Part shown: positions 8,992 to 55,000 of the stretch, in pieces
How the letters are laid out: every line of letters starts with the position of its first letter
How positions within the stretch are numbered: the first letter of the stretch is position 1
Source: a virus
IMG/VR virus record: IMGVR_UViG_3300012201_000004
Span: 1-57,186 of that record
DNA length: 57,186 nt
Strand: one strand, 5' to 3'
Notes under the pieces: generated by a model
Databases searched by the model: none
Told to the model about the DNA's origin: nothing
The model's input: only the letters and a program-made list of their open reading frames with translations
Program-made: the position numbers and the translations under genes

Positions 8992-9009
8992 CGAGAGAGA
9001 GGAAAACGT

Positions 9010-10908: not shown

Positions 10909-11109
10909 ATGGCGTGGCTCAGCAACAACGAGGAAGTGAGAACGATTGTCGTCCCTGACGATTGGAGTATGCCCTACGACCAGGAGAGCGGACACTTGTT
11001 CAACCCGTCCGAGGTGGAAGATCTTGTTGAGAATGGGCAGGTGCTTAATGCAGATGGCACCACTATGACGGTAGAGCAGTTTCAGCAGCAGTGCTATGGG
11101 CAAGACTAG
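10909..11109 (+). CDS. Hypothetical protein, 66 aa
   Basis: The start at 10909 follows AAAGGGA at good spacing. The acidic protein begins MAWLSNNEE; the next gene begins MAWFNRTNN, so the two may be diverged relatives. It includes a strand-rich middle (RTIVVPDDWSM) and a C-terminal helix. Function unknown. Confidence 0.55.
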   Translation: MAWLSNNEEVRTIVVPDDWSMPYDQESGHLFNPSEVEDLVENGQVLNADGTTMTVEQFQQQCYGQD

Positions 11110-11136
11110 CACACGACAGCAGAAAGGATACACATC

Positions 11137-11367
11137 ATGGCATGGTTCAACAGGACAAACAACACTGGTCCAGAGTTACCAACATTCACAGAAGAAGACG
11201 AACTTGTAGGGAAGCAGGCAACAGATAGCGAAGGGACGCCTGGTACCATCACAGCGGTGTACCTCAATCCTGATGGTACGAAATCTGTAGATCTCACGGT
11301 CAAAGGCGGCATCACAGGCCATGTCACCTATGGCGGTCTAGATTCTGAAGAGTACACATTGAAATAG
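11137..11367 (+). CDS. Small beta-rich protein, 76 aa
   Basis: An acidic, largely beta-strand protein with a repeated glycine/threonine turn pattern (GTPGTITAVYLNPDGT). AGAAAGGA precedes the start. It may be an SH3-like small barrel. Function unknown. Confidence 0.55.
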   Translation: MAWFNRTNNTGPELPTFTEEDELVGKQATDSEGTPGTITAVYLNPDGTKSVDLTVKGGITGHVTYGGLDSEEYTLK

Positions 11368-11421
11368 CCCACCATCACCTCCCTCACACGGCACTGGTTG
11401 CGATCTCGTCACCGCGCCGTC

Positions 11422-11450
11422 TTGCATCCATGACGCCTGCATGCTATAGT
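11422..11450 (+). promoter_or_regulatory. Rightward promoter TTGCAT-17-TATAGT
   Basis: TTGCAT (11422-11427), a 17-bp spacer and an extended TGC-TATAGT -10 (11445-11450). A GCTATC/GATAGC hairpin lies about 10-30 bases into the transcript (11459-11481). The unit continues through one small gene and the tRNA-like element to the terminator at 11878-11921. Confidence 0.6.
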
Positions 11451-11508
11451 TAGCGTAAGCTATCTACGGGTGTGGGATAGCGAGGGGTCTACTCAGGAAT
11501 GCAACGAC

Positions 11509-11754
11509 ATGACTCTGGGGGATGATACGAAGAAGATGTTAGCGGTGAGGTTTCCGAACTCTTGTCATCTCTTGCCTGAATTTGAAGAAGTGTGCGCAGA
11601 CATCAAGCACAACAATCGGGGAAAGTCCCACGTCGAGTTTAATGCACAAGGACTCGACATTCATGGACGGATCATTGTCAAGTTCTTTGATATCCTGAAG
11701 CGCCGCTTCTGTCATAAAGAGGACGATGGTGAGGACTGTAAACGCATCAGCTAA
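11509..11754 (+). CDS. Hypothetical protein, 81 aa
   Basis: The start at 11509 is preceded by AGGA at about 10 bases. The frame is also open to 11470 but without a ribosome site. The sequence is mixed alpha/beta with a conserved-looking DIHGRIIVKFFDILKR segment. It is followed after 3 bases by the tRNA-like element and shares its promoter and terminator. Function unknown. Confidence 0.45.
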   Translation: MTLGDDTKKMLAVRFPNSCHLLPEFEEVCADIKHNNRGKSHVEFNAQGLDIHGRIIVKFFDILKRRFCHKEDDGEDCKRIS

Positions 11755-11757
11755 CAC

Positions 11758-11824
11758 GCCTGTTTCGCGTAACGGGAGCGCGCCCCATTGAGGTGGGGAA
11801 GAACGGTTCGATTCCGTAGCAGGT
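11758..11824 (+). tRNA. tRNA-like element, aberrant anticodon arm
   Basis: All four arms can be drawn. The 7-bp acceptor is GCCTGTT/AGCAGGT. The D-stem is GCGT/GCGC with a GGG-containing loop. The anticodon stem is CCCC/GGGG. The T-arm is ACGG-TTCGATT-CCGT, with the canonical TTCGA loop. Departures are a 4-bp T-stem, TC rather than TA at 8-9, and an anticodon loop of 6 or 8 bases instead of 7. The anticodon is therefore uncertain (GAG, Leu, or TGA, Ser). CCA is not encoded. It may be a degenerate phage tRNA, a tRNA mimic or an attachment-site remnant. Confidence 0.5.
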
Positions 11825-11877
11825 ACACCTTCAACAATTGAATACTGAACTGCGTGACAGAACTGTTTAAAAGTAAC

Positions 11878-11921
11878 GACGCCTTTGACTTACGAGAGTA
11901 GGTTGAGGGCGTCTTTTGTTT
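11878..11921 (+). terminator. Rho-independent terminator
   Basis: A 16-bp stem including several G-U pairs (11878-11893 with 11898-11913) around a GAGA loop is followed by TTTTGTTT. It ends the transcript carrying the tRNA-like element. Confidence 0.85.
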
Positions 11922-11935
11922 GTTAAGGGGGAACG

Positions 11936-12166
11936 ATGCATCCAGATGATGTGAAAGACTCAGAGATACCAGTAGTTGAGCACGGGATCACCGTATTGGG
12001 GAACTCTATTGGTACCATTATCGATCATGCGCAGATCATGGCGAAAGAGATTGCACGCGGTCCTGGCGGTCGTGAGGTAGCACTCGCTATCACTAACCTG
12101 CAACAAGCGAGACATTGGGTTGCTGACGCGCTCAGAGAGATTGAGCATCCTTTACCGGAAAAGTAA
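11936..12166 (+). CDS. Hypothetical helical protein, 76 aa
   Basis: Acidic and helical, resembling the small phage proteins that carry a VALAITNLQQARHWVADALREI-type helix (sometimes called Acb2- or Tad1-region 'DUF' proteins). I cannot assign a family. AGGGGG lies just before the start. It begins right after the terminator, so it needs its own promoter, which I did not find. Confidence 0.6.
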   Translation: MHPDDVKDSEIPVVEHGITVLGNSIGTIIDHAQIMAKEIARGPGGREVALAITNLQQARHWVADALREIEHPLPEK

Positions 12167-12172
12167 GGCACC

Positions 12173-12415
12173 ATGAAAGACTACGAGAAGCGCGTGATCG
12201 TGCAGTACTTCCAGCAGTCTCACGCACTGCTCAGGGAGATACAGCATCACACGGAGGCGCATCCTGACGAGCCACTCACAGGAGAGCTGGCAGAGCGTGT
12301 ACAACGGCTCACGAGCGACTACGCGGTGTGGGTGTCCGACATGTGCGCGGTGGTCGGTCTCGACCTGGGACGTGTCGATTGGAGCAAGCCACCGTACTTG
12401 TTGCCGGTGTCGTAG
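12173..12415 (+). CDS. Hypothetical helical protein, 80 aa
   Basis: Function unknown. An all-helical, charged protein starting seven bases after the previous gene and probably co-transcribed with it. An imperfect long hairpin (12423-12471) lies behind its stop. Confidence 0.55.
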   Translation: MKDYEKRVIVQYFQQSHALLREIQHHTEAHPDEPLTGELAERVQRLTSDYAVWVSDMCAVVGLDLGRVDWSKPPYLLPVS

Positions 12416-12422
12416 TCGTTAT

Positions 12423-12471
12423 GGAGAGGGAGCAAGCGAGCAGTAGACTACCTCGTCTCGTTCCCCTCTCC
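12423..12471 (+). repeat. Imperfect long hairpin
   Basis: GGAGAGGG (12423-12430) pairs with CCCTCTCC (12464-12471) and CGAG with CTCG inside, around a loop near 12441-12451. There is no T-run, so it may stabilise or process the mRNA rather than terminate it. Confidence 0.4.
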
Positions 12472-12517
12472 TTGCTCAGGTGACGCGCGTCGGGCCTGGG
12501 TTCTCATGTGAGGCAAT

Positions 12518-12658
12518 ATGACAGCACAGTGGCCGCAATGGAGTTACAAACCGAATAGGCAGCTACCGCGACACACGGCGTTGGTGCTGGTGTTGGTCGT
12601 GCCGGTTGTGATTGCGGGCGTCGTTGCGTTGGGCGAATTGTTGAGGATATGGCCGTGA
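12518..12658 (+). CDS. Small membrane protein, 46 aa
   Basis: A short frame with GAGG before its ATG. Basic N-terminus, then one hydrophobic helix (residues about 20-40). Its TGA overlaps the GTG start of the ParB-like gene, so it opens the modification operon. Function unknown. Confidence 0.5.
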   Translation: MTAQWPQWSYKPNRQLPRHTALVLVLVVPVVIAGVVALGELLRIWP

Positions 12659-13518
12659 GTGAACAGCGAATACAGGATCTCAAAGAGAATAGAGTCATTC
12701 CTCTCGCCGCCTTATATCCTCATAATAGAAATTACAAAAGTCATCCACCTGAGCAAATACGCAAAATCAAGGCGAGTCTTGAGCGATGGGGTCAAGTTCG
12801 GAGCATTGTCATCAAAGACGATGGCAACGGCTCATATACCATCGTTGCCGGTCATGGTGTGGTAGAAGCGGCACAACAACTCAAGATGAGCGACCTGCGT
12901 GCCGATGTTTTCCCTCAATGGGTTCCTGATGAAGAAATACTCGGGTATCTTGTGGCTGATAACGAGCTCGGCAATGACGCTGTAGATGATACGGAACTTT
13001 TAGCAAGCCTCCTGCAAGAGCAACAAGATGCGGGGTACGATCTGGCATCAATGGGTAGTGATGAGGAGACGTTGCGGCAGATGTTGGAGAGCCTGGGTGA
13101 TGAGTATGTGGGGGATGGTGAAACGCAAGAGGAGGAGGAAAGTGGAAGTCTCTTATCTTTACTGGACATCACTATAGCCGATCCTCGCCATGTGGTGTCG
13201 TCTGGCGACATCTGGAAGATGGGCAAACATACTCTCGTCATTGCCCATGTCTTCAAGGACTGGCATATCTGGACGCAGTACCTCAAAGATGAGTCGTGTT
13301 TATTCCTTCCGTTTCCTGGCCCGATGGTGGCACTTTCCGATAAGGCAGAGGAGTATACCCTCGTGCTCGTCCAACCTGACGCCTATATCGGCGGGCATGT
13401 GCTAGACCGCTACGCCGATATTCACGGTGAGAAGAGTGTTAAGAAGATTGAGCATGTGCAAGTAAGTGTGTTGCGGGAGGATGAAGCAGAGGTAGAGGAG
13501 GATATGGAGAATGAGTAG
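12655..13518 (+). CDS. ParB-like protein, DpdB-type partner of DpdA, 287 aa
   Basis: The GTG at 12655 has GAGG at 8 bases; the ATG at 12649 is too close to it. Residues about 12-105 are a ParB/sulfiredoxin-like domain (VIPLAALYPHNRNYKSHPPEQIRKIKASL, then IVAGHGVVEAAQQL). After an acidic linker, residues about 180-275 resemble the start and end of an adenine/cytosine methyltransferase domain (SGDIWKMGKHTLVI; DRYADIHGEKSVKK), but I see no catalytic DPPY/NPPY motif. In bacterial dpd clusters DpdB is a ParB-like ATPase needed with DpdA to insert 7-deazaguanine bases into DNA. The four-base overlap with the DpdA-like gene supports that role here. Confidence 0.65.
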   Translation: MSEQRIQDLKENRVIPLAALYPHNRNYKSHPPEQIRKIKASLERWGQVRSIVIKDDGNGSYTIVAGHGVVEAAQQLKMSDLRADVFPQWVPDEEILGYLVADNELGNDAVDDTELLASLLQEQQDAGYDLASMGSDEETLRQMLESLGDEYVGDGETQEEEESGSLLSLLDITIADPRHVVSSGDIWKMGKHTLVIAHVFKDWHIWTQYLKDESCLFLPFPGPMVALSDKAEEYTLVLVQPDAYIGGHVLDRYADIHGEKSVKKIEHVQVSVLREDEAEVEEDMENE

Positions 13519-14449
13519 CGTCATCCGTACCGGTGGAGGCACCTTTGACCCACACGAGGAAAACGTATACTTTATCGCTTCGGGCGCTGAACAATTAGCT
13601 ATCGCTGAAGAGGTGCATCATCATCTTCTTATCGCAGTAAATGAAATTGAAAGCAGCGAGTCTTTAGCGTGTTTAGATAGATGGACGAAAGACAATAGGA
13701 AACGCATTTTCCTTGACTCTGGCGTGTTTAACTTGTCTATGTCCTATGCGCGCAACCACAATGTTTCTATGGATACCGCCTTATCTCTAGATCCTACTGA
13801 AATTGATGGCTTTGATAAACTATGGGAGCAATACGTATCACTTGTTCTCAAGTATGGCGATAAATTGTGGGGGTATATCGAGATTGACCAGGGCGGGCGT
13901 GAGAATAAGATTAAGACTCGCGCCAGGCTCGAAGCGTTGGGATTGCGTCCTACTCCCGTATATCACCCCCTTAATGATGGATGGGACTACTTTGATTACC
14001 TGGCAGAGCGATATGATCGTATTTGCTTTGGAAATATTGTTAAGGCGAATGCATCTACCCGTCAACGCCTTATCGCAACTGCTTGGGAACGGCACCGTAA
14101 ATACCCAAATTTGTGGATACACTTTCTTGGCTTAACTCCTAATCAGTGGCTCAATGCTATGCCACTGAACAGCGGAGACTCTTCATCATGGCTTCACCCT
14201 ATTCGTTGGACAGTCTATCCATCATCGTGCGATGGTCAACAATTTAGCGAGATGGGAAGAGGATATCGCTATCTACTTCAGAAGGATGGTGGTGAGACTC
14301 ATGCTGAAAACGGCTCAGCCAAGGCTATTAAACTGTGTGGCTACAAATCTCGTATGGATATGCTTACTTGGAGACGGCATATGAACGATCTGATCTCACT
14401 CGGTTTTGAGAAATATCCCGCGCCGCAATGTGAGGTGACACATGGGTAG
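13511..14449 (+). CDS. dpdA: DpdA-like DNA 7-deazaguanine transglycosylase
   Basis: A distant tRNA-guanine transglycosylase relative. It shows a DSGVF motif (Asp69), a YIEID strand ending in Asp126, PVYHPL and FGNIV strands of the barrel, and a SGDSSSW motif (Asp223) near the C-terminus, as I know from phage DpdA proteins. The enzyme swaps guanine in DNA for a 7-deazaguanine base. Its neighbours supply exactly that base (FolE, QueD, QueE), and the ParB-like gene overlaps its start. At 312 aa it fits the shorter phage forms. Which Asp is the nucleophile is inference. Confidence 0.8.
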   Translation: MSSVIRTGGGTFDPHEENVYFIASGAEQLAIAEEVHHHLLIAVNEIESSESLACLDRWTKDNRKRIFLDSGVFNLSMSYARNHNVSMDTALSLDPTEIDGFDKLWEQYVSLVLKYGDKLWGYIEIDQGGRENKIKTRARLEALGLRPTPVYHPLNDGWDYFDYLAERYDRICFGNIVKANASTRQRLIATAWERHRKYPNLWIHFLGLTPNQWLNAMPLNSGDSSSWLHPIRWTVYPSSCDGQQFSEMGRGYRYLLQKDGGETHAENGSAKAIKLCGYKSRMDMLTWRRHMNDLISLGFEKYPAPQCEVTHG

Positions 14450-14786
14450 AATGCTTGCAGTTGTGCGCTTCACGCGTGAGGGCTGGCACTCGTGGCCCGA
14501 CGCGCCAGAGTCACGCGCTTACCTTGCCTCACTGCATCGACACCTGTTTCATGTGGAGGTGCAACTAGAAGTGTTTCATGCTGAGAGGGAAGTTGAGTAT
14601 CACGATCTCCTTGATTTCTGCAAAGAGCATTTCCATGGTGGAGATAGGGGTGGAGTCTCCTGTGAGACAATGGCGAAAGGGTTAGCACAAAGAATTACCG
14701 CTCGGTTTCCAGAGCGGTGGGGGCAGGTGTCGGTATTTGAGGATAACGAGGTGGGAGCTGTTTACTCCTGGGAGGTACAGAGATAA
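14442..14786 (+). CDS. QueD/PTPS-like paralogue, 114 aa
   Basis: A small relative of 6-pyruvoyl-tetrahydropterin/6-carboxy-tetrahydropterin synthase. HRHLFHVEV (His32, His34, His37) resembles the HGHNY zinc strand. A CETMAKGLA helix occupies the place of the usual TAENIA helix, and EDNEVGA the place of the C-terminal SETP-type strand. It lacks the leading SASH motif and part of the first strand, so activity may differ. The true QueD lies 270 bp downstream. It overlaps DpdA by eight bases and is likely part of the modification pathway. Confidence 0.6.
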   Translation: MGRMLAVVRFTREGWHSWPDAPESRAYLASLHRHLFHVEVQLEVFHAEREVEYHDLLDFCKEHFHGGDRGGVSCETMAKGLAQRITARFPERWGQVSVFEDNEVGAVYSWEVQR

Positions 14787-14935
14787 TGGTGGGTAGTGGC
14801 AGACGTAACGACAAGTCGGTCTCCATTGGTCAGCGCGTAGACATGACCAAGCTCGTTCTGCTCGTAGTCCTCTACCATGTCAGTATACCCAAGTGTTTCA
14901 ATCAGATTGTCAGCCTGTTCAATAGTGGTGTTCAT
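14762..14935 (-). CDS. Small leftward gene inside the modification operon, 57 aa
   Basis: The frame is oriented against all neighbours. ATG at 14935 is preceded by AGGAGAG at 10 bases, and an AT-rich TATTAT/TATACA -10 candidate lies just upstream. The acidic protein (MNTTIEQADNLIETLGY) has no family I recognise. Its end overlaps the QueD-like paralogue by 25 bp. It could be an independent small regulator or a moron gene. Confidence 0.5.
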   Translation of the reverse strand: MNTTIEQADNLIETLGYTDMVEDYEQNELGHVYALTNGDRLVVTSATTHHYLCTSQE

Positions 14936-15053
14936 GTTGTTTTTCTCTCCTGTATAATAAAACATTCATTTGATGACTCTAGTATCACCTATCTCGCGCA
15001 ATATGACAAGCGGCTTTACTGGCATATTCTTCCCATTTTTCGAGGGAGTACTT

Positions 15054-15413
15054 ATGTACACAATTAGCAAGCAGTTCGCGTTTAGCGCATCGCACGCGTT
15101 ACTTCATCTTCCAGATGGACACGTATGCAAGAGACTGCATGGTCATAACTACATGGTGGAATTGCTCTTGCGCCGCCCTGCGCTGGATGGGAGCGGCTTT
15201 GTGGTGGACTACAATGACATGAAACCCTTTGGGCTGTACCTTGACGAGCACCTTGACCACCAACATCTGAACGACGTGCTTCCAGACATGCCTCCCACGG
15301 CTGAGAACATTGCGAAACATTTGTACGGGATTGCCTGGGAGATGTTTCACGATGTCGCTATCACGGTACGGGTGAGCGAGACGCCAAAGACTTGCGCAGA
15401 GTACACACAATGA
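15054..15413 (+). CDS. queD: 6-carboxy-5,6,7,8-tetrahydropterin synthase
   Basis: The start at 15054 follows GAGGGAG. Hallmarks of the T-fold family are present: FSASHALL (His14), Cys25 four residues before LHGHNY (His29 and His31, zinc ligands), VVDYNDMK, LDHQHLND, PPTAENIA and a final VSETPKTCAEY strand. It converts dihydroneopterin triphosphate to carboxy-tetrahydropterin, the second step of 7-deazaguanine synthesis. At 119 aa it has the usual length. ATGA overlap links it to QueE. Confidence 0.9.
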   Translation: MYTISKQFAFSASHALLHLPDGHVCKRLHGHNYMVELLLRRPALDGSGFVVDYNDMKPFGLYLDEHLDHQHLNDVLPDMPPTAENIAKHLYGIAWEMFHDVAITVRVSETPKTCAEYTQ

Positions 15414-16108
15414 GCAAACTTACCATCTCAGAGTGCTTTGGGCCAACGGTGCAGGGTGAAGGTGCCTTGATCGGGAAGCCCACCGTCTTTGTACGTACTG
15501 GCGGGTGCGAGTATCGCTGTTCCTGGTGTGATACCCTCTATGCCGTCCTCCCTGAATATAAAGACGAGTGGCGGCAGATGAGTACCCAGGAGGTGTTTAC
15601 TGAAATACAACGCTTATCGCCAAAGCCTATTCTCGTGACGCTCTCAGGTGGCAATCCAGCGATACAACCACTCGGAGACTTGATCGACCTGGGACATCAG
15701 CACGGGTACACCTTCTGCATGGAGACGCAGGGAAGTATAGCACGGTCCTACATGCGGCGGCTGGATTATCTCACGTTATCGCCTAAGCCACCATCTAGCG
15801 GGATGAAAACACGGTGGGAGCGATTAGATGGATGCTTCGAGACAGAGGCAAGTGTATTTCTCAAGGTGGTGGTATTCGATGACGCCGATTATGCCTATGC
15901 TCAACATATTCATGAACGGTATCCAACAACGCCAATGTACTTACAACCTGGGAATGCTACACCTCCACATGTGGGAGCATTCGATATCGAAGGGGTACTC
16001 AGTAAGACTCGTTGGCTCATTGAGAAGGTGACACAGGATCAGTGGAATGAGGTCACGGTGTTACCACAACTCCACACTCTTTTGTGGCAAAACCAGAGGG
16101 GGATGTAA
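15410..16108 (+). CDS. queE: 7-carboxy-7-deazaguanine synthase
   Basis: A radical-SAM enzyme. The cluster motif is CEYRCSWC (Cys33, Cys37, Cys40; the CX3CX2C spacing usual in QueE), preceded by GPTVQGEGALIGKP, which binds SAM and substrate. SGGNP replaces the common SGGEP. ETQGS and LSPKP follow as in the family. It ring-contracts carboxy-tetrahydropterin to 7-carboxy-7-deazaguanine. At 232 aa the length is normal. It overlaps QueD and runs into FolE. Confidence 0.92.
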   Translation: MSKLTISECFGPTVQGEGALIGKPTVFVRTGGCEYRCSWCDTLYAVLPEYKDEWRQMSTQEVFTEIQRLSPKPILVTLSGGNPAIQPLGDLIDLGHQHGYTFCMETQGSIARSYMRRLDYLTLSPKPPSSGMKTRWERLDGCFETEASVFLKVVVFDDADYAYAQHIHERYPTTPMYLQPGNATPPHVGAFDIEGVLSKTRWLIEKVTQDQWNEVTVLPQLHTLLWQNQRGM

Positions 16109-16110
16109 AG

Positions 16111-16674
16111 GTGTCTGAGGTAAATTATCAAGCGTTGCTTACAATAGGGCGTGAACTGCTACAAGCCATAGGGGAAGACCCTGAGCGAGAGGGGATCAAG
16201 GACACGCCACGTCGTTTTGCAGATTGGTGGAAAGAGTTCATTGACTACCAACCTGGAAGTCTTGATACGTGTTTCGAGAGCATCACGACCGACCAAATGG
16301 TGACGGTATCAGGTATGCGGGTGTGGAGCCTCTGTGAGCATCATCTCCTCCCATTCTGGTGTGATGTCTCTATTGGGTATATCGCAGGTGAACAGGTTTT
16401 AGGATTATCGAAGTTTGCGCGGATCGCTCACAAGTATGCTCATACCTTGCAACTCCAAGAGCGATTATGTCACCAGATCGCCGATGAGATTACACGGATT
16501 GTCGGCACTGAGGATGTGGCGGTGTTAGCGCGTGGGCGACACCTGTGTATGGAGATGCGCGGTGTGAGGACACCTGGACTTATGTCCTCGTCCGTGATGC
16601 GTGGTTTGTTTCGTGATAAGAACGAGGCCCGTATGGAGTTTTTGCAGTTGGTGAAGGAGTCAAGACATGACTGA
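16111..16674 (+). CDS. folE: GTP cyclohydrolase I
   Basis: GTG at 16111 is used because AGGGGG lies about 10 bases upstream; the earlier GTG at 16084 has no site. Zinc ligands are visible in SLCEHHLLPF (Cys75, His78) and HLCMEMRGV (Cys146). REGIKDTPRR and GLSKFARIAHKYA match substrate and oligomer segments. It opens GTP to dihydroneopterin triphosphate, the first step towards 7-deazaguanine bases. Its presence lets the phage raise precursor flux. The stop overlaps the terminase small subunit start. Confidence 0.93.
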   Translation: MSEVNYQALLTIGRELLQAIGEDPEREGIKDTPRRFADWWKEFIDYQPGSLDTCFESITTDQMVTVSGMRVWSLCEHHLLPFWCDVSIGYIAGEQVLGLSKFARIAHKYAHTLQLQERLCHQIADEITRIVGTEDVAVLARGRHLCMEMRGVRTPGLMSSSVMRGLFRDKNEARMEFLQLVKESRHD

Positions 16675-17209
16675 TACCCGCAAACCATCCTTACAAAAAA
16701 ACACGAGTAGCCATGTCCGTACCAGCGCCCGCCGCCCTGGTCATCGTCTCACCGAAGAGCAGACGCACGAGGCACAAGAGAAGTTCCTCAAAGCTTTTGC
16801 CTCCAACGGTAATGTACGTGTCGCGTGTACCGCCGCTGGCATTGACCGCTCAACCGTTCACGCCTGGACTGAGCATGACGAACAGTTCTCGATGGAGTAC
16901 AACCTTGCTAAAGAGGATGTCAACGATGCGATCCGTGCTGAGATCTATAGACGCGGCATGTTTGGAGAGGAACGCTTTGTCGTCGCTCAGGGGAGGATTG
17001 TCAACGGGCCTGATGGGAAGCCGCTCACGTACCGGGAGAAGTCGGATACGCTACTCATCTTCCATGCAAAGAGTCGCATGCCTGAGTATCGAGATAAGCA
17101 ACAGGTAGAGCATTCGGGAAGCATTGATGTTTCTGGCGCGGCTGAATCACTCTTTCAGAAGGTGGCGATGGGTATGTCTCAAGAGTCGGAGGCACCCAAA
17201 GATGGGTAG
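16667..17209 (+). CDS. Terminase small subunit
   Basis: 180 aa with a basic disordered N-terminus (about 1-30), then a helix-turn-helix (FLKAFASNGNVRVACTAAGIDRSTVHAW) typical of small terminases that recognise packaging sites. The C-terminus is a helical oligomerisation region. It overlaps the large subunit gene. AAGGAG precedes the start. The tandem FolE-terminase overlap suggests modification and packaging genes share a transcript. Confidence 0.8.
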   Translation: MTDTRKPSLQKNTSSHVRTSARRPGHRLTEEQTHEAQEKFLKAFASNGNVRVACTAAGIDRSTVHAWTEHDEQFSMEYNLAKEDVNDAIRAEIYRRGMFGEERFVVAQGRIVNGPDGKPLTYREKSDTLLIFHAKSRMPEYRDKQQVEHSGSIDVSGAAESLFQKVAMGMSQESEAPKDG

Positions 17210-18665
17210 TGCCGTTTCTCGCGTCCCCATGACCGATGAATACTTCCAGCGATGCCGGTGGTTTGCCCATCAGCCACGCGAGAAGAAACTGGAAATCATC
17301 AAGACGCTCAGCGACGAAGAAGCACTTATTTTCAAATATACGTGGGAAGCATGGGCGCGTGACAAGCAATTGGCACAGATAGAGGCTCCTGGGTATCGTT
17401 GGAGGAACTGGATTCACCTTGCGGGCCGTGGGAATGGGAAGACGCGAACGGGTGCGGAATGGATACGACAGCAGGCAGAGAGTAACAAGATTGAACGTAT
17501 GATCCTCGTTGCTCGCACCGCCGCCGATGTGCGAGATACGATGGTCGAGGGAGAGAGCGGCATCCTTGCCATTAGTCCCCCCTGGTTCGCGCCTAAGTAT
17601 GAGCCATCAAAACGGCGGCTTACGTGGCCTAATGGGAGTATGGCGATCACTTTTAGCGCAGATGAACCTGATGCGCTCCGTGGGCCTCAGTGCGCGAGGG
17701 CATGGGCAGATGAACGCGCATCTTGGCAGTATGACCAGGCGTGGGATAACCTCATGATGGGTATGCGTTTAGGCGAAGATCCTCAGTGTATCGTGACGAC
17801 GACACCGCGCCCGACAAAGGCCATCATTGAACTGAAGAAGGCGAAAACCTCTAAGGTTACGGTAGGCGTGACCTATGAGAATAGAGATAACCTTGCACCG
17901 TCATTTCTCACCGAGATATTACGCAAGTACGAGAATACTCGCCTGGGCAGACAGGAGATCTATGCTGAAATCCTCGAGGATATCGAAGGGGCGCTCTGGA
18001 ACTATGCCATGTTGGAGCGGAACCGCGTGGTCAAAGCTCCTGAATTGGTGCGTGTCGTGGTGGGCGTCGATCCGTCTGTGACCAATAATGAAGACTCTGA
18101 CGAGACGGGTATCATCGTAACGGGCCTGGGTGTTGATGGACATGCCTATGTGTTGGCAGATTACACTATCAAAGGCTCCCCGCTAGAATGGGCAACCGCC
18201 GTTGTGACTGCCTATCACCTGTTCCATGCTGATCGCGTCGTAGCTGAAGTGAACAATGGTGGAGATCTCGTAGAGCAGAATGTGAAGCTTGTTGATGAGA
18301 ATATTTCCTACAAGGCGGTTCATGCTTCACGCGGGAAGATTACCCGTGCTGAGCCGGTTGTGGCAATCTACGAGCAGGGGCGCGCTCACCATGTCGGCAA
18401 CCTGGCAAAGCTGGAAGACGAGCAATGTACATGGCTGCAAGGAATGAAGTCACCTAATAGGCTGGATGCGTGTGTTTGGACAATAAACGAACTAGTGTTG
18501 AATAGCGGTACTATCCCTCTTGTTATTTCTACAGGCGGCACACCCAATCCACTCCCACCATTCAACACGGTAGAAGACGAAGAAGAGAATGCCCGCTTGC
18601 AGGCAGAGCAAGAGCGCCGCGCCAACATCGTCGGGGTGCTACAGAGACTTGGAGGACTGATATGA
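17202..18665 (+). CDS. terL: Terminase large subunit
   Basis: ATG at 17202 overlaps the small-subunit stop; the frame is open to 17124. The ATPase domain has Walker A GRGNGKT (Lys80), Walker B ARAWADE (Asp170-Glu171) and a TTTPRP coupling motif. The nuclease domain begins at VVGVDPS (Asp290), an RNase H-like fold with further acidic residues downstream. It powers DNA packaging and cuts concatemers. Length (487 aa) is normal. Confidence 0.93.
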   Translation: MGSAVSRVPMTDEYFQRCRWFAHQPREKKLEIIKTLSDEEALIFKYTWEAWARDKQLAQIEAPGYRWRNWIHLAGRGNGKTRTGAEWIRQQAESNKIERMILVARTAADVRDTMVEGESGILAISPPWFAPKYEPSKRRLTWPNGSMAITFSADEPDALRGPQCARAWADERASWQYDQAWDNLMMGMRLGEDPQCIVTTTPRPTKAIIELKKAKTSKVTVGVTYENRDNLAPSFLTEILRKYENTRLGRQEIYAEILEDIEGALWNYAMLERNRVVKAPELVRVVVGVDPSVTNNEDSDETGIIVTGLGVDGHAYVLADYTIKGSPLEWATAVVTAYHLFHADRVVAEVNNGGDLVEQNVKLVDENISYKAVHASRGKITRAEPVVAIYEQGRAHHVGNLAKLEDEQCTWLQGMKSPNRLDACVWTINELVLNSGTIPLVISTGGTPNPLPPFNTVEDEEENARLQAEQERRANIVGVLQRLGGLI

Positions 18666-18835
18666 GTATGTGGGGACCTCTCCGCTTTTATAGAGAGAGT
18701 CGATCATACATGGCTGGATACTCGATCTGGTATTTCTGGCGTCACTTCCCAAAGGCATTTGTGAGGTTTTATGCGATGAGTGCGCGTGACTTGCTTCGCG
18801 CAAGAAGATCAGTCGAATGGATTGACGAGGAGTAG
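18662..18835 (+). CDS. Small basic protein between terminase and portal, 57 aa
   Basis: GGAGG lies 8 bases before the ATG, and the start overlaps the terL stop. Aromatic- and Arg-rich (FYRESRSY, WYFWRHFPK), partly hydrophobic. Function unknown. Confidence 0.55.
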   Translation: MSMWGPLRFYRESRSYMAGYSIWYFWRHFPKAFVRFYAMSARDLLRARRSVEWIDEE

Positions 18836-18838
18836 CCG

Positions 18839-20731
18839 ATGAGCCGACACAAGAAACGCCGTGGGACACTCAAGCCCGTTCCCGTGATGGCACAGGATGC
18901 GTATCGTCAGCTCGTCGAAGCGGTGGAACGCGCGAACGCTACAACGCCCCCAGGCCGCAATGCTGACCTCTCAGAAGCGGGTCGCATCCTCTCAGCCAAT
19001 CCCGCGCTCGTCACGATGCTGCAAGCCGTACAGGACCGTGAGTACGCCCGTCAAGATGCCCTTGCCCGTCTGGATGTGAAGGGCGCTCCCACAGGTGCAT
19101 ACCCACAGGCAGGGATGGCGGGATGGACAGGGACAAAGAACTACCCTCAAGGCGTCCCGAATGCTCGCCTCTTGCGTGATTGGGCGGATACGAATGAATG
19201 GACACGCGCCGCGATCAATGCCCGCCGTCAACAGGTTGAACGCGCTGACATCGCGGTCCTGCCCAACGATGAGAGCAAGCCCTATAACAAGCCGGTCATG
19301 AAGGCCATTCAGCAGCTCCTCGACCAGCCCAACGAACTACGCGATAGTTGGCGCTCGCTCATCGGGCCGGTCCTAGAGGATGTTCTGGTGTTAGATCGGG
19401 GCGTCATCTCGAAGAACATGACCGCCTCGCGTAAGCCGACCGCACTCTACTATGAGGACGGGAGTACGATCAAGATTTACCCTGAATGGTCAGGCAACCC
19501 AAAGGAGCCGCGCTATCTGTATGAGGAGCCAGGAAGCAACAACAAGAAACCGTTGCTCAATGATGAACTTATGGTCATCATGGCGAACAGCGCGTCCTAC
19601 CGCTACGGTCTCTCACCCGTGCAGGTGCTTCGTCAAACGATCGTTGCCGACCTTGAGGCCATGCGGAGCGGAGCCGACCTCGTAGCGAACAAGCCGCCTC
19701 CCCATGCTCTACAGATGACCGGTGCCAGCGATACGCAGATACGCGGCTTTATCAATGCGTATGACAACGAGATTGCCGGGCGGAAGCAACTCTTTGCCTT
19801 TGGCGGTCCCCAGGAGGCACACCTCTTCAAACTGGTGTATTCCGCGAAAGATAACCAGTGGATGGAGTGGCAAGAGTACCTTGCGCGTAAGATCTGCGCC
19901 ATATTCCAGATTAGCCCGCAACAAATCGGGTTGACCTTCGATATTAACAAGGCGACGGCTGGCACGCAACAGCAGATCTTTGAGGATACGGGACTGATCC
20001 CCTTGCTGCTGTTGTTGGAGGAGTACCTGAACCGTGAACTGCTTGCTGACTTTGCACCCAAGCAATCAGGAGACCGCTTCAACCTGGATGCGCTCAACTT
20101 GCGCATCGTGTTTCCAGAGGTGTCAGAGGCAGCAAGGCAGGTACACCTTGAACGCATGTTGTCGATGGCAGAGACGGGGCTAGCAGGACTGCCATCACAG
20201 ACGCCCAATCAGGTATTAATGGCGATGGGGCAGGAGCCTATCCCTGGTGGCAATACTTTATGGGTCATGACGACAAATGGCCCGATGCCCTGGTTGTCAT
20301 ATGACAACGAGTATGGGGACTATCAACCACCGATCACGGGCGGTCAACTTGGCGCTCAAGATGTGGCTGGCGGGCCTTCGGATAGCTCTGACGATGACTT
20401 AGGACTCAATGAGGATACGTCCTCATCGGAGAGTGATAGTAACGCGGCTGAGGCGGCTCAGAGTGCTTCTAGCGGCGGTTCACCCAATGGCGATGCTCAA
20501 TCATCTGAGAAACGCATGGTGTACCGTGATGTACGCCGTCCTGGGGTCAAGTGGAGTCCTACACTCCTCACATTAGCGCATGGCCGCCCGATGCCTGAGC
20601 GTCTTGCTCGTCCACATCGCACAGCGGAAGAGGAGCAAGCACAGCGGGTGTTAGAGCAGGCTGTGAAACGGGTGTTCGATGGTGCTGCGACACGTGGGAC
20701 GTCGGCATTGAAGGAGAGAGGAAAGTCATGA
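18839..20731 (+). CDS. Portal protein
   Basis: 630 aa in the canonical place after terL. HK97/SPP1-type portal signs: a region with NARRQQVERADIAVL, a wing with DDRGVISKN-like strands, and the crown-proximal FQISPQQIGLTFD motif that matches the 'iF.vPp..lG' portal signature. The C-terminal 120 residues are acidic, Ser-rich and disordered, then basic. The dodecamer forms the DNA channel at one capsid vertex. Confidence 0.88.
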   Translation: MSRHKKRRGTLKPVPVMAQDAYRQLVEAVERANATTPPGRNADLSEAGRILSANPALVTMLQAVQDREYARQDALARLDVKGAPTGAYPQAGMAGWTGTKNYPQGVPNARLLRDWADTNEWTRAAINARRQQVERADIAVLPNDESKPYNKPVMKAIQQLLDQPNELRDSWRSLIGPVLEDVLVLDRGVISKNMTASRKPTALYYEDGSTIKIYPEWSGNPKEPRYLYEEPGSNNKKPLLNDELMVIMANSASYRYGLSPVQVLRQTIVADLEAMRSGADLVANKPPPHALQMTGASDTQIRGFINAYDNEIAGRKQLFAFGGPQEAHLFKLVYSAKDNQWMEWQEYLARKICAIFQISPQQIGLTFDINKATAGTQQQIFEDTGLIPLLLLLEEYLNRELLADFAPKQSGDRFNLDALNLRIVFPEVSEAARQVHLERMLSMAETGLAGLPSQTPNQVLMAMGQEPIPGGNTLWVMTTNGPMPWLSYDNEYGDYQPPITGGQLGAQDVAGGPSDSSDDDLGLNEDTSSSESDSNAAEAAQSASSGGSPNGDAQSSEKRMVYRDVRRPGVKWSPTLLTLAHGRPMPERLARPHRTAEEEQAQRVLEQAVKRVFDGAATRGTSALKERGKS

Positions 20732-26527: not shown

Positions 26528-26842
26528 ATGGTAGAGACTCAAACAAAGGGGCGTGGTTGGTTCCGTGTTTCTTGGAAGGTCATACCCTTCCTACTGGAAA
26601 AGGGATTGCTTCTGCCTCCTGACTATCAAGTTGTAGAGGTTAGCGATTCTCTTCCCCGTATTGGGGAGGACAGTATCACGATTGTAGTAGAGAGTGAGCA
26701 TATTCCTGCCGTTGGTGATGATGAAGCATTGCCTGAAATCGTGCCTATCTACGCACGCGAGGACGATCAGGTGTTTCTCGATCGCATAGAACTCACAGAT
26801 GGAACAGTACTCTACAAACGGGAGGTGGTAGGCAATGGGTGA
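26528..26842 (+). CDS. Hypothetical protein, 104 aa
   Basis: Acidic, beta-rich protein with an N-terminal aromatic patch (RGWFRVSWKVIPF). It lies between the minor head and protease genes and overlaps the latter. Function unknown; likely head-associated. Confidence 0.55.
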   Translation: MVETQTKGRGWFRVSWKVIPFLLEKGLLLPPDYQVVEVSDSLPRIGEDSITIVVESEHIPAVGDDEALPEIVPIYAREDDQVFLDRIELTDGTVLYKREVVGNG

Positions 26843-29384
26843 AACACTTGTTGCGCCGTATGTTGCAGAACAAGGCTTGCTCAATGCCTGCCTTGGTCGT
26901 GGTGCTGACTTTGAGGTGTATACCGATGCGCTCAAAGTCGATGAGAATGCAGAGCCAGGGCACTATATCGTCAACATGATCGGATCGTCCACAGTGCAGG
27001 ACTTGCAAGGCGACATTATGAAAATGTCTGCACTTGACGATATGACCACAGTACCGGATGGCATGCTTATCTGGCTAGATCATTCTTATTCCGTTCCATC
27101 CGACCTCTTCGGCTCGCTCTATGGTCGTCCCTGGATCAAGTCGGCAAGCGGCATAGCTGACTTGCATTTGTCTGCTGAGGTGGAAACTGACAACCCGAGA
27201 GCACTGCAAACCTACAACATGATCACGAAGGGTCGTCGTAAGTTCGGATGTAGCATAGGCTGTCAGGTGCTTGACTATGAATATGACGATACAATAGATG
27301 CATTAATAATAAATCGGGTACAAGTGGTAGAATGGTCGGTAGTTGGCATACCAGCCCAACAGAGATGTTGGGTAGAGATCGCTACCAAGTCACTCTTTGA
27401 ACGCTCATTGCTTGACGGGCGCGGTGATGACGCGCTCCGGCTTGCTCCCGCCGTCAAGGGGATGCATTCACGATCCTATGACACGATCCTCAAACATATC
27501 GAAAGCCCAGGACTCCGGCGCGATCTTGAGCATGTGACACCTCGCGGGACATCTCCTCATCGTATCATGACCGCCTTTAATGATGGTGAGGCTGGTTTCG
27601 CGCTAGTAGACCGCAAAGGTATCACGAAGTCTCTCTCCCGCGATGAAGTAAGCACATTATTAGCAAAGGAGCCTACAATGGATGACCTCACCGCGAAAGC
27701 TGCAACCGGTAAAACGTCATGGCCGCTTATGGACATCAGGACCGAATGGACTGGCAGCAAAGCAGAGAAGCAAATATTTGCCTGGGCGCGCAATGATCAG
27801 GATGAGATTGTCGCCAGCAAAGCAAAACAGTGCTTCTTATACTGTAATCCCGATGACAGCGATAAACAGTCTGGATACAAAATGCCCTTCTGCTATATCC
27901 CAGGTGAAGCACCCCAGATTGTTCCGTTGGGCGTCCGAGCGGCAGCCGGAGTCTTGGCGGGCGGAATGGGCGGTGGAAAGTTCGGCGGTGACGATGCCGC
28001 CATGAAAGCCAAAGTCAAGACGATGTACGGGCGCATCAATAGTCAATTTAGCCCTGATCCTGAGTGGGTTGTGCCGTGGGAGAAAGACGACAAAGAGAAG
28101 AGTGTCGAGAAGGACATTCTCGGTACTGATAGCGGCGGGGAATTGATACGCCAAGACCTCGCAGAAAATGGAGATGACATGGAAGTAACGAAAGCCGCCG
28201 ATGTCAAGGTTGCCAGCGATGGCACACATGAGGCATGCACCGGATCTCATAGCCACGCACATAAGGCGTTTGGAACGCAAGGCAACGATGAGCAGCATTC
28301 ACATGAGCACAGCCACGATGGAGACTCGGCGCATGAGCACAGCCATGCTGAGAAAGCTGCTGAAGCTGAGCATACCACTGAGAGCGAGCCTGAGAGGGTC
28401 AAGGAAACGCTGCAAGAAGAGACACATACCGAAGTGGTAGACCCTGCTCGTATCGGCCTTCTTGCGGCGTACAACACCATAGGGAAGCAGTTGGGGTTCG
28501 ATGAGCAAACACTCGAAAAGAAATCCATCGACAATCCTGCTGATATGCAAGCGGCTATCTCCTGCATCTCTGAAGCTGATCGCTATATCGATCAGGCAAT
28601 GGCGCTTCTTGGCATTCCCGATGCTGACGATGTTGACGATGTTGACGCTCCTGCACCTTCAGGCCCGTCGCCACTGCTCTATAGCATGGATGCACAATTC
28701 ACTAGGTCACTCAGAGACTTCATGGTCAAAGAAGGCCGTGAGTTGAGCACCGCTAATGTTGCCGTGATTAAGACCATGCATGATCTCTGTGCGTCGATGC
28801 ATCCCGACGTATGCAAGGGTGCGTCAATGGGCAATCAAGGGACCGACGTAGAGAATGCGCGACAAGATGCAGAGTACCAGATGGGCAATGAGAACGGGGC
28901 AGGCAAAGCATACGAGCCGTTGACTGAGGCGATGCAATTGCTTGCTAAGGCGTTGGACAATCTACATATCCCTGCTATCACGAACGAGGTTCAGCAGGCA
29001 CAAAAAGCGTTGGACACGATCAAACAGCAGATCGGCGCGAAGGACCGTGAGCTGAAGACGCTCAGTAGCAATATTGCCGCGCTCAGTAATGCGCCACTTG
29101 GCCGCCCGACGCAACTCAACCGCTCCATTGTTGGTGAGGCGTCGTATGTCGATATGAAGCTTGCAAGCGGTGAGCGCGTCACTCCCCAGGACATCCTCGC
29201 GCTTACGAGCGTCAAGGCCATCGGGCAATCGCGCTATCGCTACTGGCCATCTGAGGTCGGGAATGGTATGCGTCCTGAACTTTCGACGGATCAGAAAAGC
29301 CTCATGCACCCTTATGATGTTATTGCCTATCAGGACGGCAAGGAAGCGTATATTCCCATGATCGATGACCCTGTTGGCATCTAG
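26835..29384 (+). CDS. Prohead protease fused to scaffold-like region, 849 aa
   Basis: Residues about 45-170 follow the HK97-type prohead protease pattern: LDHSYSV (His83), FGCSIGCQV (Ser140) and VQVVEWSVVGIPAQ. Residues about 285-400 form a second domain (AATGKTSWPLMD ... GVRAAAGVLAGGMGGG). A His-rich stretch lies at about 470-505 (HSHEHSHDGD), able to bind metal. The C-terminal 300 residues are helical, acidic and partly coiled, as expected for a scaffold the protease would later digest. The fusion and His cluster are unusual for length and content. Confidence 0.75.
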   Translation: MGETLVAPYVAEQGLLNACLGRGADFEVYTDALKVDENAEPGHYIVNMIGSSTVQDLQGDIMKMSALDDMTTVPDGMLIWLDHSYSVPSDLFGSLYGRPWIKSASGIADLHLSAEVETDNPRALQTYNMITKGRRKFGCSIGCQVLDYEYDDTIDALIINRVQVVEWSVVGIPAQQRCWVEIATKSLFERSLLDGRGDDALRLAPAVKGMHSRSYDTILKHIESPGLRRDLEHVTPRGTSPHRIMTAFNDGEAGFALVDRKGITKSLSRDEVSTLLAKEPTMDDLTAKAATGKTSWPLMDIRTEWTGSKAEKQIFAWARNDQDEIVASKAKQCFLYCNPDDSDKQSGYKMPFCYIPGEAPQIVPLGVRAAAGVLAGGMGGGKFGGDDAAMKAKVKTMYGRINSQFSPDPEWVVPWEKDDKEKSVEKDILGTDSGGELIRQDLAENGDDMEVTKAADVKVASDGTHEACTGSHSHAHKAFGTQGNDEQHSHEHSHDGDSAHEHSHAEKAAEAEHTTESEPERVKETLQEETHTEVVDPARIGLLAAYNTIGKQLGFDEQTLEKKSIDNPADMQAAISCISEADRYIDQAMALLGIPDADDVDDVDAPAPSGPSPLLYSMDAQFTRSLRDFMVKEGRELSTANVAVIKTMHDLCASMHPDVCKGASMGNQGTDVENARQDAEYQMGNENGAGKAYEPLTEAMQLLAKALDNLHIPAITNEVQQAQKALDTIKQQIGAKDRELKTLSSNIAALSNAPLGRPTQLNRSIVGEASYVDMKLASGERVTPQDILALTSVKAIGQSRYRYWPSEVGNGMRPELSTDQKSLMHPYDVIAYQDGKEAYIPMIDDPVGI

Positions 29385-29416: not shown

Positions 29417-29725
29417 ATGACAGCACAGCCACAAGATCTATCGACGATTGCTTATCGGCTCAATACCCTAGAGCAGCAGGTACAGCAGTTGCATACTCAA
29501 TTGCAATTGTACGTACCAGTGAGAGAGAATGAGTTGCAGTTACAAGCCATCAAGTCAACGGTAGACCGTATTGAGACAGATGTGCTTGACACAAAAAAGC
29601 AAGTGGGTGCGATGCGCGAGTCTCAGGACAAATTACAAATTCGCGTCCTCCTGGGGATTATCACTACCGTCGTGACCATCCTGGGAGGCATCCTTATTGG
29701 CTATGTCACTCATCTGATCCATTGA
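29417..29725 (+). CDS. Coiled-coil membrane protein, 102 aa
   Basis: Residues 8-75 are a coiled coil (TLEQQVQQLHTQLQL). Residues about 76-98 are one transmembrane helix. The layout is like haemolysin XhlA or phage-membrane linker proteins, but it stands among head genes. TTGA links it to the next gene. Confidence 0.6.
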   Translation: MTAQPQDLSTIAYRLNTLEQQVQQLHTQLQLYVPVRENELQLQAIKSTVDRIETDVLDTKKQVGAMRESQDKLQIRVLLGIITTVVTILGGILIGYVTHLIH

Positions 29726-29745
29726 AGAAGGGGAGAGAGCGTTCA

Positions 29746-30348
29746 TTGAAACGAAAGAGCATCTATGCCTGGATCGCATTGCTCACGACGCTCCTGCTCT
29801 TGCTGATCCTCTTTGGCTTTCTCGGAATATGGGTACTCTACGGGAGCGCGGCGAACGTCATGAGTCTGGTAGGTGTGCAACGCGCGCGTGCGGAGCACAT
29901 GGTCAAGGATGTGCTCGTTCTGGAATATCGTTCGTCTTCGACAGAGCGTACAACCGCAATCAGTGAATTGCAGGATACGTTACCGCTATGGGAAAAGACA
30001 CAGCAAGGGTTACAGGTAGGGGATACCTCGTTGGGACTTCCTAGGCATCCCCCTGCTGATGTGCTCCTCTCAGTCATTCAAGCACAATCTGACTTTGTTC
30101 CGATGCAGGTAGCCTTGCAGAATATCCTTGCGCATCCAACACACATTGACCCGACACAACTCCAAATCGTGTTAGACCATGAACGGGGCTATTATGTGAC
30201 CATGAGCCAGACGAATGCGCTCTGGCAACAGCAGATTGATGAGATATTCTTCCAGCTCTTCTGGATTGAGACGGGACTCGTTGCAGCGATAGCAGGTATC
30301 GTGGTGGTCAACTTCGTGTTCGTCAGAAGAAGTTTGACAACGCTGTGA
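29746..30348 (+). CDS. Orphan membrane sensor domain (PilJ-like), 200 aa
   Basis: TTG at 29746 has GGGGAGAG at 8 bases; an earlier TTG at 29722 lacks a site. A transmembrane helix (about 8-32) is followed by an extracellular four-helix bundle (RARAEHMVKDVLVLEYR; LPLWEKTQQGLQVGDTSLGL; the final helices) and a second transmembrane helix (about 172-195). The pattern is that of PilJ/type IV-pilus chemoreceptor sensor domains. No HAMP, kinase or signalling output follows. Phage use is unknown: decoy receptor, superinfection function or captured host fragment. Confidence 0.6.
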   Translation: MKRKSIYAWIALLTTLLLLLILFGFLGIWVLYGSAANVMSLVGVQRARAEHMVKDVLVLEYRSSSTERTTAISELQDTLPLWEKTQQGLQVGDTSLGLPRHPPADVLLSVIQAQSDFVPMQVALQNILAHPTHIDPTQLQIVLDHERGYYVTMSQTNALWQQQIDEIFFQLFWIETGLVAAIAGIVVVNFVFVRRSLTTL

Positions 30349-51892: not shown

Positions 51893-51914
51893 CTTGTTCA
51901 AAAGGACTCATTGT

Positions 51915-53588
51915 ATGGTTGATTATCCACAGGCAATCACCTATCTTGTCGATGCAAGCCGCGTCTTCGTGGGGGAAAATGATCACGCGGCGTTGGTCAT
52001 TCATGGCACGGGCGGGAGCGCCACGCAAACGGCACAACAGTTAGGTGATTACTTCCGTACCACGCCTCTAGAGACGTCATCGCATTATGGCGTAGATCGC
52101 GCCGGTATCATCTGTCAGTACGTTCTTGAGCGTGACGGGGCTGGTGGAAACTGCTGTACAGAAGCAGGACATGACACCTTCTGGGATCAGTTCGGCGGGG
52201 ATAATCTCAATAAACATACGCTCTCTATCGAATGCGAGAACGATACTGAGAACAGTCTCACGCTCTCATCTGCACAGCAACATGCACTTTTCCCACTCAT
52301 AGCGCATCTCTGCAAAAAATATAGTATTGCGCCCGACCACATCAAGTCGCATGCCTCTATTGCGCCTGTGACACGTGCGAGTTGTCCAGGAAAGAACTTC
52401 CCCTGGTCGGCATTGTGGGACTATTTGAAAGGAGTCACCAGTATGACAGAAGTATGCAGCGTGACCGACACGTCACAATTTTCCCCGAATAAATCGGTTG
52501 AAAAATGTGGATTTTTCTCAATCGCACTCTTGAAATATGCCGGACATCCTGGGCAAGCACCATCAGGCAATGCAAGCGAGATCACGGCATGGGCGGATAG
52601 TGAATACGTGAAGTACGATGGGCAAGATACGAGCAGTAACAGTTCAGGAATGACCGTCCCGATGGAGTATCAAGTCATCCAGGATGCAGGCTTGCACTAC
52701 CAGGGAATAGGCGCGACGGAAACTGGTTTCCACGTCGATCATCTCACCGCCGACTACATACGCGCGTGGCTTAAGGACGGCTATCCCGTCCTGCTGGCAG
52801 TTGCAGAGGATGCCGTCTTCGACGAAGATCTGGGAGCAAAACCATACAGTTGGAATACGGCAGGCTTGTACCACATCATCACCGCAACGGGCTATGATGG
52901 GAAGGTGCTGCTCTGTCATGATACCGCATCCATCGGAACTGATGGAGTGAGGCCAGGACCGCGCCGTTACGACGCACAGAGACTACAGAGCGGGCTTATC
53001 TCAGCTACGGCGGTTGTACTCCCGTGGCTCTCTCGTCCCGCCTCAGATTTCGATCCTACGCAACCTACTCCTCACACACAATCAGCACTACTAGGAGAGA
53101 CACCTATGGATATCAAAGACCCCGACTTTGCAGCAAGGTTCTTTCAGCAAGTCACTGATGGTGACTGGTACTGTCCTACGAAGCGACAGCATATCATTGG
53201 TGACATCCTCAAGTTCTACCGCAAGACCTGGGGTGCGGCGCGTTTACCGCTCTCCGCAGAGATGACGGACGTTGCTGGTATCAAGTGGCAGCATTGTGAA
53301 GCAGGCGTGATCATCTTTGACCCGTCTCACGTGCATGACCATCCCGCAGGCGATCCGTGCTACCTGGCACGGCTAGACGATCCGATGGTGCAACGGCTCT
53401 TCGCCAAACAGCAGATCGTCATCACAGGCAACGCAGGCACGGCGCTTGATGCACTGTTGGCAAACATCACCTTGCAGAAGCAAACATTGGAGCAAGTAGC
53501 AGGCGACCTGACGGCGTTGGAACATGGAACGGATGCAGCGGCGGTGACGGTGGCGAACATAAAAACGGCGCTCGCGGCGGGGAAATGA
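51915..53588 (+). CDS. Modular endolysin: amidase, C39-like peptidase, wall-binding tail, 557 aa
   Basis: ATG at 51915 with AAAGGA. Module 1 (1-175) is a PGRP/amidase_2 domain with zinc ligands His30 (VIHGT), His146 (SHASI) and Cys157 (SCPGK). Module 2 (177-395) resembles a papain-like C39 peptidase: Cys198 (EKCGFFS), His320 (YHIITATG) and a following Asp (CHDTA). Module 3 (398-557) may bind cell wall and ends in a coiled coil. It would cut amide and peptide bonds in murein. Strong internal ribosome sites precede ATG 52443 and ATG 53106, exactly at module borders. Confidence 0.85.
   Translation: MVDYPQAITYLVDASRVFVGENDHAALVIHGTGGSATQTAQQLGDYFRTTPLETSSHYGVDRAGIICQYVLERDGAGGNCCTEAGHDTFWDQFGGDNLNKHTLSIECENDTENSLTLSSAQQHALFPLIAHLCKKYSIAPDHIKSHASIAPVTRASCPGKNFPWSALWDYLKGVTSMTEVCSVTDTSQFSPNKSVEKCGFFSIALLKYAGHPGQAPSGNASEITAWADSEYVKYDGQDTSSNSSGMTVPMEYQVIQDAGLHYQGIGATETGFHVDHLTADYIRAWLKDGYPVLLAVAEDAVFDEDLGAKPYSWNTAGLYHIITATGYDGKVLLCHDTASIGTDGVRPGPRRYDAQRLQSGLISATAVVLPWLSRPASDFDPTQPTPHTQSALLGETPMDIKDPDFAARFFQQVTDGDWYCPTKRQHIIGDILKFYRKTWGAARLPLSAEMTDVAGIKWQHCEAGVIIFDPSHVHDHPAGDPCYLARLDDPMVQRLFAKQQIVITGNAGTALDALLANITLQKQTLEQVAGDLTALEHGTDAAAVTVANIKTALAAGK
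52428..52445 (+). promoter_or_regulatory. Internal ribosome site, endolysin module 2
   Basis: AAAGGAG at 52428-52434 lies 8 bases before the in-frame ATG at 52443 that opens the peptidase module. Free initiation here would yield a 381-aa peptidase plus wall-binding protein. Confidence 0.65.
53093..53108 (+). promoter_or_regulatory. Internal ribosome site, endolysin module 3
   Basis: AGGAGA at 53093-53098 lies 7 bases before the in-frame ATG at 53106. It would give a 160-aa wall-binding/coiled protein able to multimerise with the full-length lysin. Confidence 0.6.
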
Positions 53589-54220: not shown

Positions 54221-55000
54221 TCATACAGCCGATGCAGGCACGGGTGCTTCCCTCAACACTTCCAGAAGCTTCTCCGCCTGCCGCTTTGTGGCAGCGTCCC
54301 AGGCAGAGTCCCGGGCAGCGGCCCTGTCAGCGGGGCTGGCAGCGTCCCTGTCAGCGGCCCTGGAAGCGGTCCGGGCAGCGGCACTGGCCGCGTACCAGGC
54401 AGCGTCCCAAGCAGCGTCCCTGGAAGCGACACTGGAAGCGACACTGGAAGCGTCCCTGGCAGCAGCCCAGGCAGCGTCCCTGGCAGGGCCGCTTCCAGCG
54501 CCATTGGCAGCGTCACTGGCAGCGTCCCAGGCAGCGGCCCACTCTGAATCCGCCACCTCCCCACCATGCAGCAGCCGCTGATAGAGGCCCGCAACCAGCA
54601 CGATGACTTCTTTGCCTGCCTCGTCGGCAAAACGAATCACTCCATCTTGCGCGTCGATCAGGAGCCATACCAAGAAGCGCGGGATGATCCTCGAGAGATC
54701 AGCGCCAACCGGGATCGCCTCAAGGAAGGCGAGCGGGAACGCCTGGTAGTAGTCAATCGGCGTTTTCTCGAAGAGATGATCTTCGAGATATGCCACCTGG
54801 CGCGGGATGCCGAGCTCCGGCTCGAATTGCTCATGGATATTCTCGCCATCGGGGATCTCCAGAGTGCATGCGACACCGCATCCGGTACGCGTCCGGGGAT
54901 CCCAATAATGGCCGCGCACCAGCTCATCTGCGGCCATATGCGCCTTCATCTTTTCGATGTAAAAATCTTTGGTGGCTTGCTTGCCGTGAAATGCTTTCAT
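54221..55000 (-). CDS. Alanine-rich repeat protein, 259 aa
   Basis: Residues 1-150 are a globular domain (GHYWDPRTRTGCGVACTLE; a DQRxA-like region is absent). Residues about 152-245 are a repeat tract in which Trp, Ala, Ser, Arg and Asp recur (WAAAWDAASDAAN...), encoded by 12- to 24-bp repeats of GCGTCCC-type DNA. The tract should be a long amphipathic helix or coiled stack. AAAGGGAAAG before ATG. I know this kind of Ala-repeat tail from phage and host proteins but no function. Confidence 0.65.
   Translation of the reverse strand: MKAFHGKQATKDFYIEKMKAHMAADELVRGHYWDPRTRTGCGVACTLEIPDGENIHEQFEPELGIPRQVAYLEDHLFEKTPIDYYQAFPLAFLEAIPVGADLSRIIPRFLVWLLIDAQDGVIRFADEAGKEVIVLVAGLYQRLLHGGEVADSEWAAAWDAASDAANGAGSGPARDAAWAAARDASSVASSVASRDAAWDAAWYAASAAARTASRAADRDAASPADRAAARDSAWDAATKRQAEKLLEVLREAPVPASAV

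Follow-up and report, generated by a model that had tools for sequence, protein, structure and literature searches.

A phage endolysin gene with two in-frame internal start signals at its module junctions

Endolysins with internal starts

Internal starts (iTSSs) in endolysins are of two kinds, with Type I situated between a pair of enzyme modules and Type II ahead of the wall-binding part (PMC9430671), and both have been proven experimentally (PMC9430671, PMC12203907). Type II complexes have compositions of 1:3, 2:2 or 1:5 (PMC9430671), and the Type I enzyme Ply2638A is a heterodimer with faster lysis (PMC12203907). In E. coli, the internal starts predicted in LysP008 and Lysc2 failed to give a second product (PMC9371310). 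A survey of iTSSs retained the best internal start of each gene only, so that two starts in one gene could not be reported there (PMC9430671). In the open-access literature we found no report of both kinds in one endolysin gene.

We analysed a viral DNA of 57,186 nucleotides (IMG/VR record IMGVR_UViG_3300012201_000004; the whole stretch is called the window), whose endolysin gene appears to have the anatomy of Type I plus Type II. Like the Type II enzymes Lys170, LysIME-EF1, CTP1L, CD27L, CS74L and LysP7951 (PMC9430671, PMC12203907, PMC4777826), it carries an in-frame Shine-Dalgarno (SD) site and start just before the C-terminal module. Unlike them, it has a second internal start further upstream and a C-terminal module of another family (LGFP-like, weak), and its complex, in contrast to theirs, is a prediction from sequence. 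In common with the Type I enzymes Ply2638A, Ms6 LysA, LysPollywog and LysJavan488 (PMC9430671, PMC12203907), an in-frame SD and ATG follow a catalytic module and precede a candidate second one; here that second module is weakly identified as a peptidase and is followed by a further start. An earlier reading of this DNA from its letters alone (the sequence-only reading) had stated that secondary initiation is known for some lysins; single internal starts of Type I or Type II are indeed well known.

The lysin gene and its candidate internal starts

The gene lies after the tail genes of a tailed phage, in the position of a lysis cassette, and its product matches PHROG endolysin families and contains a peptidoglycan hydrolase module, Amidase_2. 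Its features are as follows.

51901–51917 (+): SD (AAAGGA), spacer 8 and the ATG from which the full-length lysin begins; duplex energy −5.3 kcal/mol, RBS-like score +2.8
51915–53588 (+): endolysin ORF, 557 aa, 60.3 kDa, uninterrupted frame
51987–52394 (+): Amidase_2 catalytic module, residues 25–160 (Pfam PF01510, E = 1.3e-18)
52428–52445 (+): first internal SD (AAAGGAG, 52428–52434), spacer 8, ATG 52443 (residue 177); predicted product 381 aa, 41.2 kDa
52443–53105 (+): C39-like peptidase module (weak); sub-threshold PF13529 match, candidate catalytic C198, H320 and D336
53093–53108 (+): second internal SD (AGGAGA, 53093–53098), spacer 7, ATG 53106 (residue 398); predicted product 160 aa, 17.5 kDa
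53106–53588 (+): C-terminal module, putatively wall binding, with helical tail; common to lysins L074, L082, L085 and L073
53676–54023 (+): putative lysis-cassette holin, a small membrane protein with no significant Pfam family; shares 31% identity (E = 3e-10) with the gene that follows the lysin in L074

In the amidase, the zinc-ligand candidates H30, H146 and C157 are also conserved in the L074 lysin by alignment. Residues 177–397 fell short of the Pfam cut-off for Peptidase_C39_2 (16.6 bits against 24; E = 0.012). The catalytic residues of that family are expected in the order Cys, then His, then Asp, which is the order of the three candidates of the middle module, where C39-like residues span about 198–337. 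A C39_2 match in contig G006 was rejected as a relative of this module, as it lies near a papain-like ORF and bears no similarity to the window module. Separately, a papain-family (Peptidase_C1) ORF lies three genes downstream of the lysin in L085 (6986–7744, +) and could be a further peptidase, distinct from the lysin but close to the lysis genes.

The C-terminal module (residues 398–557), searched alone, matched no Pfam family and did not reach the LGFP cut-off; weak LGFP matches occur in the lysins P0002 (E = 0.23) and L082 (E = 0.12), not in the window module. Its position, its sharing among different lysins and this weak LGFP-like resemblance suggest that it binds the wall. The end of the module is predicted to be helical in a low-confidence model, and this tail could be its oligomerising part; AlphaFold gave models of poor quality (pLDDT 42 and 32).

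Both internal ATGs are in frame with the ORF, and the positions, spacers and frame given in the sequence-only reading agree with ours. That reading set the starts exactly at the boundaries of amidase, C39-like and wall-binding modules. Both do lie in linkers, the first 17 residues past the amidase end and the second at the residue from which the C-terminal module is homologous to its relatives; the C39-like and wall-binding labels, however, are weak. A misannotated gene start for the lysin was ruled out, since both ATGs come after the significant amidase module.

By anti-SD duplex energy, 52443 (−8.2 kcal/mol) and 53106 (−7.3 kcal/mol) rank first and second among the 27 internal in-frame ATG, GTG and TTG codons. 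They surpass the gene's own start and come close to what is typical of the phage (median −7.8 kcal/mol over 24 gene starts). We also computed an RBS-like score (duplex plus start codon minus local fold), in which the opening of structure by ribosomes initiated upstream is ignored. On this score 53106 is the best of the gene (−1.6), ahead of the gene's own start, and 52443 is third of the 27 (+5.3) because of a stable local mRNA structure (−14.7 kcal/mol). Ribosomes arriving from upstream may open that structure.

Junction start signals in related lysins

Related phage contigs were reached through the window portal and terminase; one of them, G004, encodes a GH25 lysin (L073, P0002) ending in the C-terminal module of the window lysin. 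Searches in which this module and the lysins of relatives served as queries added L074 and L082–L085, which makes six related lysins, all on contigs of other uncultivated phages. The L074 lysin consists of an amidase and the same C-terminal module as that of the window, without the C39-like part. The L082 and L085 lysins join an amidase to a related C-terminal module, and those of L083 and L084 join one to an unrelated module beginning near GWKD.

In all six, the internal SD and start that is strongest by SD energy stands at the junction before the last module, whether the upstream catalytic module is an amidase or GH25 and whichever last module follows. The sites are:

L074: AGGAGAGGATACCACT-ATG
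L073: AAGGAGGAATACCCCTT-GTG
L082: AGGAGGTGACACC-GTG
L083: GGAGTTTCT-ATG
L084: AAAGGAGGAACAACCTGC-ATG
L085: GGAGGAACCA-ATG

The L083 site is first by SD and second in the RBS-like model. These lysins thus share with the window lysin a homologous amidase and/or C-terminal module and a best internal SD and start at a junction; unlike it, each has one junction and one internal start, and none has a C39-like module. Among viral contigs and GTDB genomes the whole window lysin had no close relative, and among viral contigs neither had its C39-like plus C-terminal part; phage and plasmid records gave one distant amidase as the sole match. Since the C39-like module turned up no relative, 52443 is without a direct orthologue. 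Internal initiation, as put forward in the sequence-only reading, is therefore backed unevenly: equivalent junction starts in six relatives speak for 53106, and the case for 52443 is weaker. A search with the window's HTH protein for a host clade found nothing.

Two comparisons point to exchange of modules. GGA GAG ... ATG, with similar residues downstream, is common to the linkers of the window and L074, yet the module before this linker is C39-like in the window and an amidase in L074. In L082 and L083 the amidases are 87% identical and the downstream modules unrelated; DNA similarity between the two breaks off 20–35 nt upstream of the internal starts, on the 5′ side of both SDs, and returns near the 3′ end, so the exchanged segment includes SD and start. 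In addition, the start position relative to the amidase is alike in the window (52443, YLKGVTS-M), L084 (YLKGGTTC-M) and L083 (YLQNGVS-M). The downstream modules of these lysins are best read as cassettes, each with its own start, and the two stacked starts of the window may reflect insertion of a C39-like cassette between the amidase and the C-terminal module.

Three proposed nested products and competing explanations

On the cassette reading, lysins of this group would recombine as units of SD, start and module, each combination yielding a free module, and two cassettes in one gene would give three nested products of one three-component lysin. We regard this full proposal as plausible rather than probable. 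Initiation at 51915 would give the chain of amidase, C39-like and C-terminal modules (60 kDa); at 52443, the C39-like and C-terminal chain (41 kDa); and at 53106, nothing but the C-terminal module (17.5 kDa). In its free form this module would associate with the longer chains and increase avidity for the wall, as in Type II endolysins, and the 41 kDa chain would act as a second enzyme with the same C-terminal module, as in Type I. From the sequence comparisons, 53106 is very probably used, whereas for 52443 the prospects are evenly balanced, and whether both serve as starts could equally go either way. Initiation, assembly, peptidase activity and wall binding of the window lysin are what we infer. 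The enzyme is likely a multi-part complex instead of one chain, because its later modules carry start signals of their own, kept at like joints in related phages.

How far such sites could arise by chance was examined in several ways. An SD match of at least 5 nt at usable spacing precedes 12 of the 226 internal ATGs in the window's ORFs, 52443 and 53106 being two of the 12. Same-length internal windows of 137 background ORFs held a site as strong in 3.5% (52443) and 5.9% (53106) of cases, and synonymous codon permutation within the gene gave p = 0.31 and 0.29 for the two linkers; with figures this mild, the window alone is suggestive, not decisive. Most single-linker permutation values lay at p = 0.06–0.31, so the SDs are partly explained by the glycine/glutamate-rich residues of the linkers. 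Combined, the permutations gave a Fisher p of 0.007 over 8 linkers and 0.005 for the relatives only, random placement of the best candidate start over seven genes gave p = 4e-9, and comparison of the relatives' linkers with background ORFs gave a Fisher p of 3e-8, all values that overstate significance because the compared lysins share ancestry. No excess of strong starts was found outside the linkers by codon permutation.

The mild single-site figures are what would be expected if SD-like purine runs merely happened to fall near methionines in such linkers, with no internal initiation at all, and portal proteins yield 15% predicted iTSSs, which count as false positives (PMC9430671). Against so simple an account, the pattern recurs in 7 of 7 lysins with the SD top-ranked each time and no excess outside the linkers, and we regard chance as highly unlikely. 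The internal SDs might instead be relics of separate genes that became fused, persisting without use or need. Each module does resemble an exchangeable unit with its own start, and an origin of iTSSs by gene fusion has already been proposed (PMC12203907). Unused SDs should decay, however, whereas SD and start are kept in lysins whose amidase or module is only 32–38% identical to that of the window, and the permutations show a modest excess; this explanation is also unlikely, if slightly less so. A stronger competitor has 53106 alone at work, making the window lysin a Type II endolysin of full chain plus free C-terminal module, with the SD of 52443 either a by-product of the codons at the amidase end (Leu-Lys-Gly, ttg aaa gga) or too structured for use. 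The RBS-like ranking of the two sites and the fold at 52443 fit this account, as does the homologous SD and start in L074; but the gene's strongest SD belongs to 52443, its position relative to the amidase matches the L083 and L084 starts, and translation from upstream may unfold the site. We judge it possible, leaning towards doubtful.

If the cassette reading is true, nested initiation comes built into the module exchange of these lysins and is not the oddity of a single gene, which would help account for the persistence of internal starts. Three-product lysins would then escape surveys in which each gene is represented by its best internal start alone (PMC9430671). Codon-recoded DNA can lose internal starts, so that native DNA would be advisable for lysin tests.

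Several further observations concern the phage at large. In the 849-aa prohead protease (Peptidase_S78; ORF 26835–29384, +), AAAGGAG-6-ATG at 27660–27680 offers an internal start at residue 282, just past the protease domain, an arrangement reminiscent of nested scaffold starts as in lambda C/Nu3. As a parallel to the lysin this start (27678) was rejected, since the matching place in its L006 relative, which is 40% identical, lacks a strong site. A coiled-coil protein and a membrane protein are encoded at 29417–30348 (+), after the protease and before the major head protein. Their homologues adjoin the lysin in L074 and L085 (47–55% best identity), and in the window the two may be displaced lysis genes. 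At 54221–55000 (−), a 259-aa ORF with no Pfam match is repetitive over a long stretch rich in Ala, Trp and Asp (WDAAW, ARDA-type units). Positions 8740–20005 are 99.97% identical to IMG/VR record 3300012356_000027 (L005) over its whole length of 11266 bases, which makes L005 a second record of this virus or of one almost identical to it. Finally, genes for PTPS/QueD-like, radical SAM (QueE-like) and GTP cyclohydrolase I proteins stand in a row at 14970–16674 (+), which suggests 7-deazaguanine synthesis and modified phage DNA.
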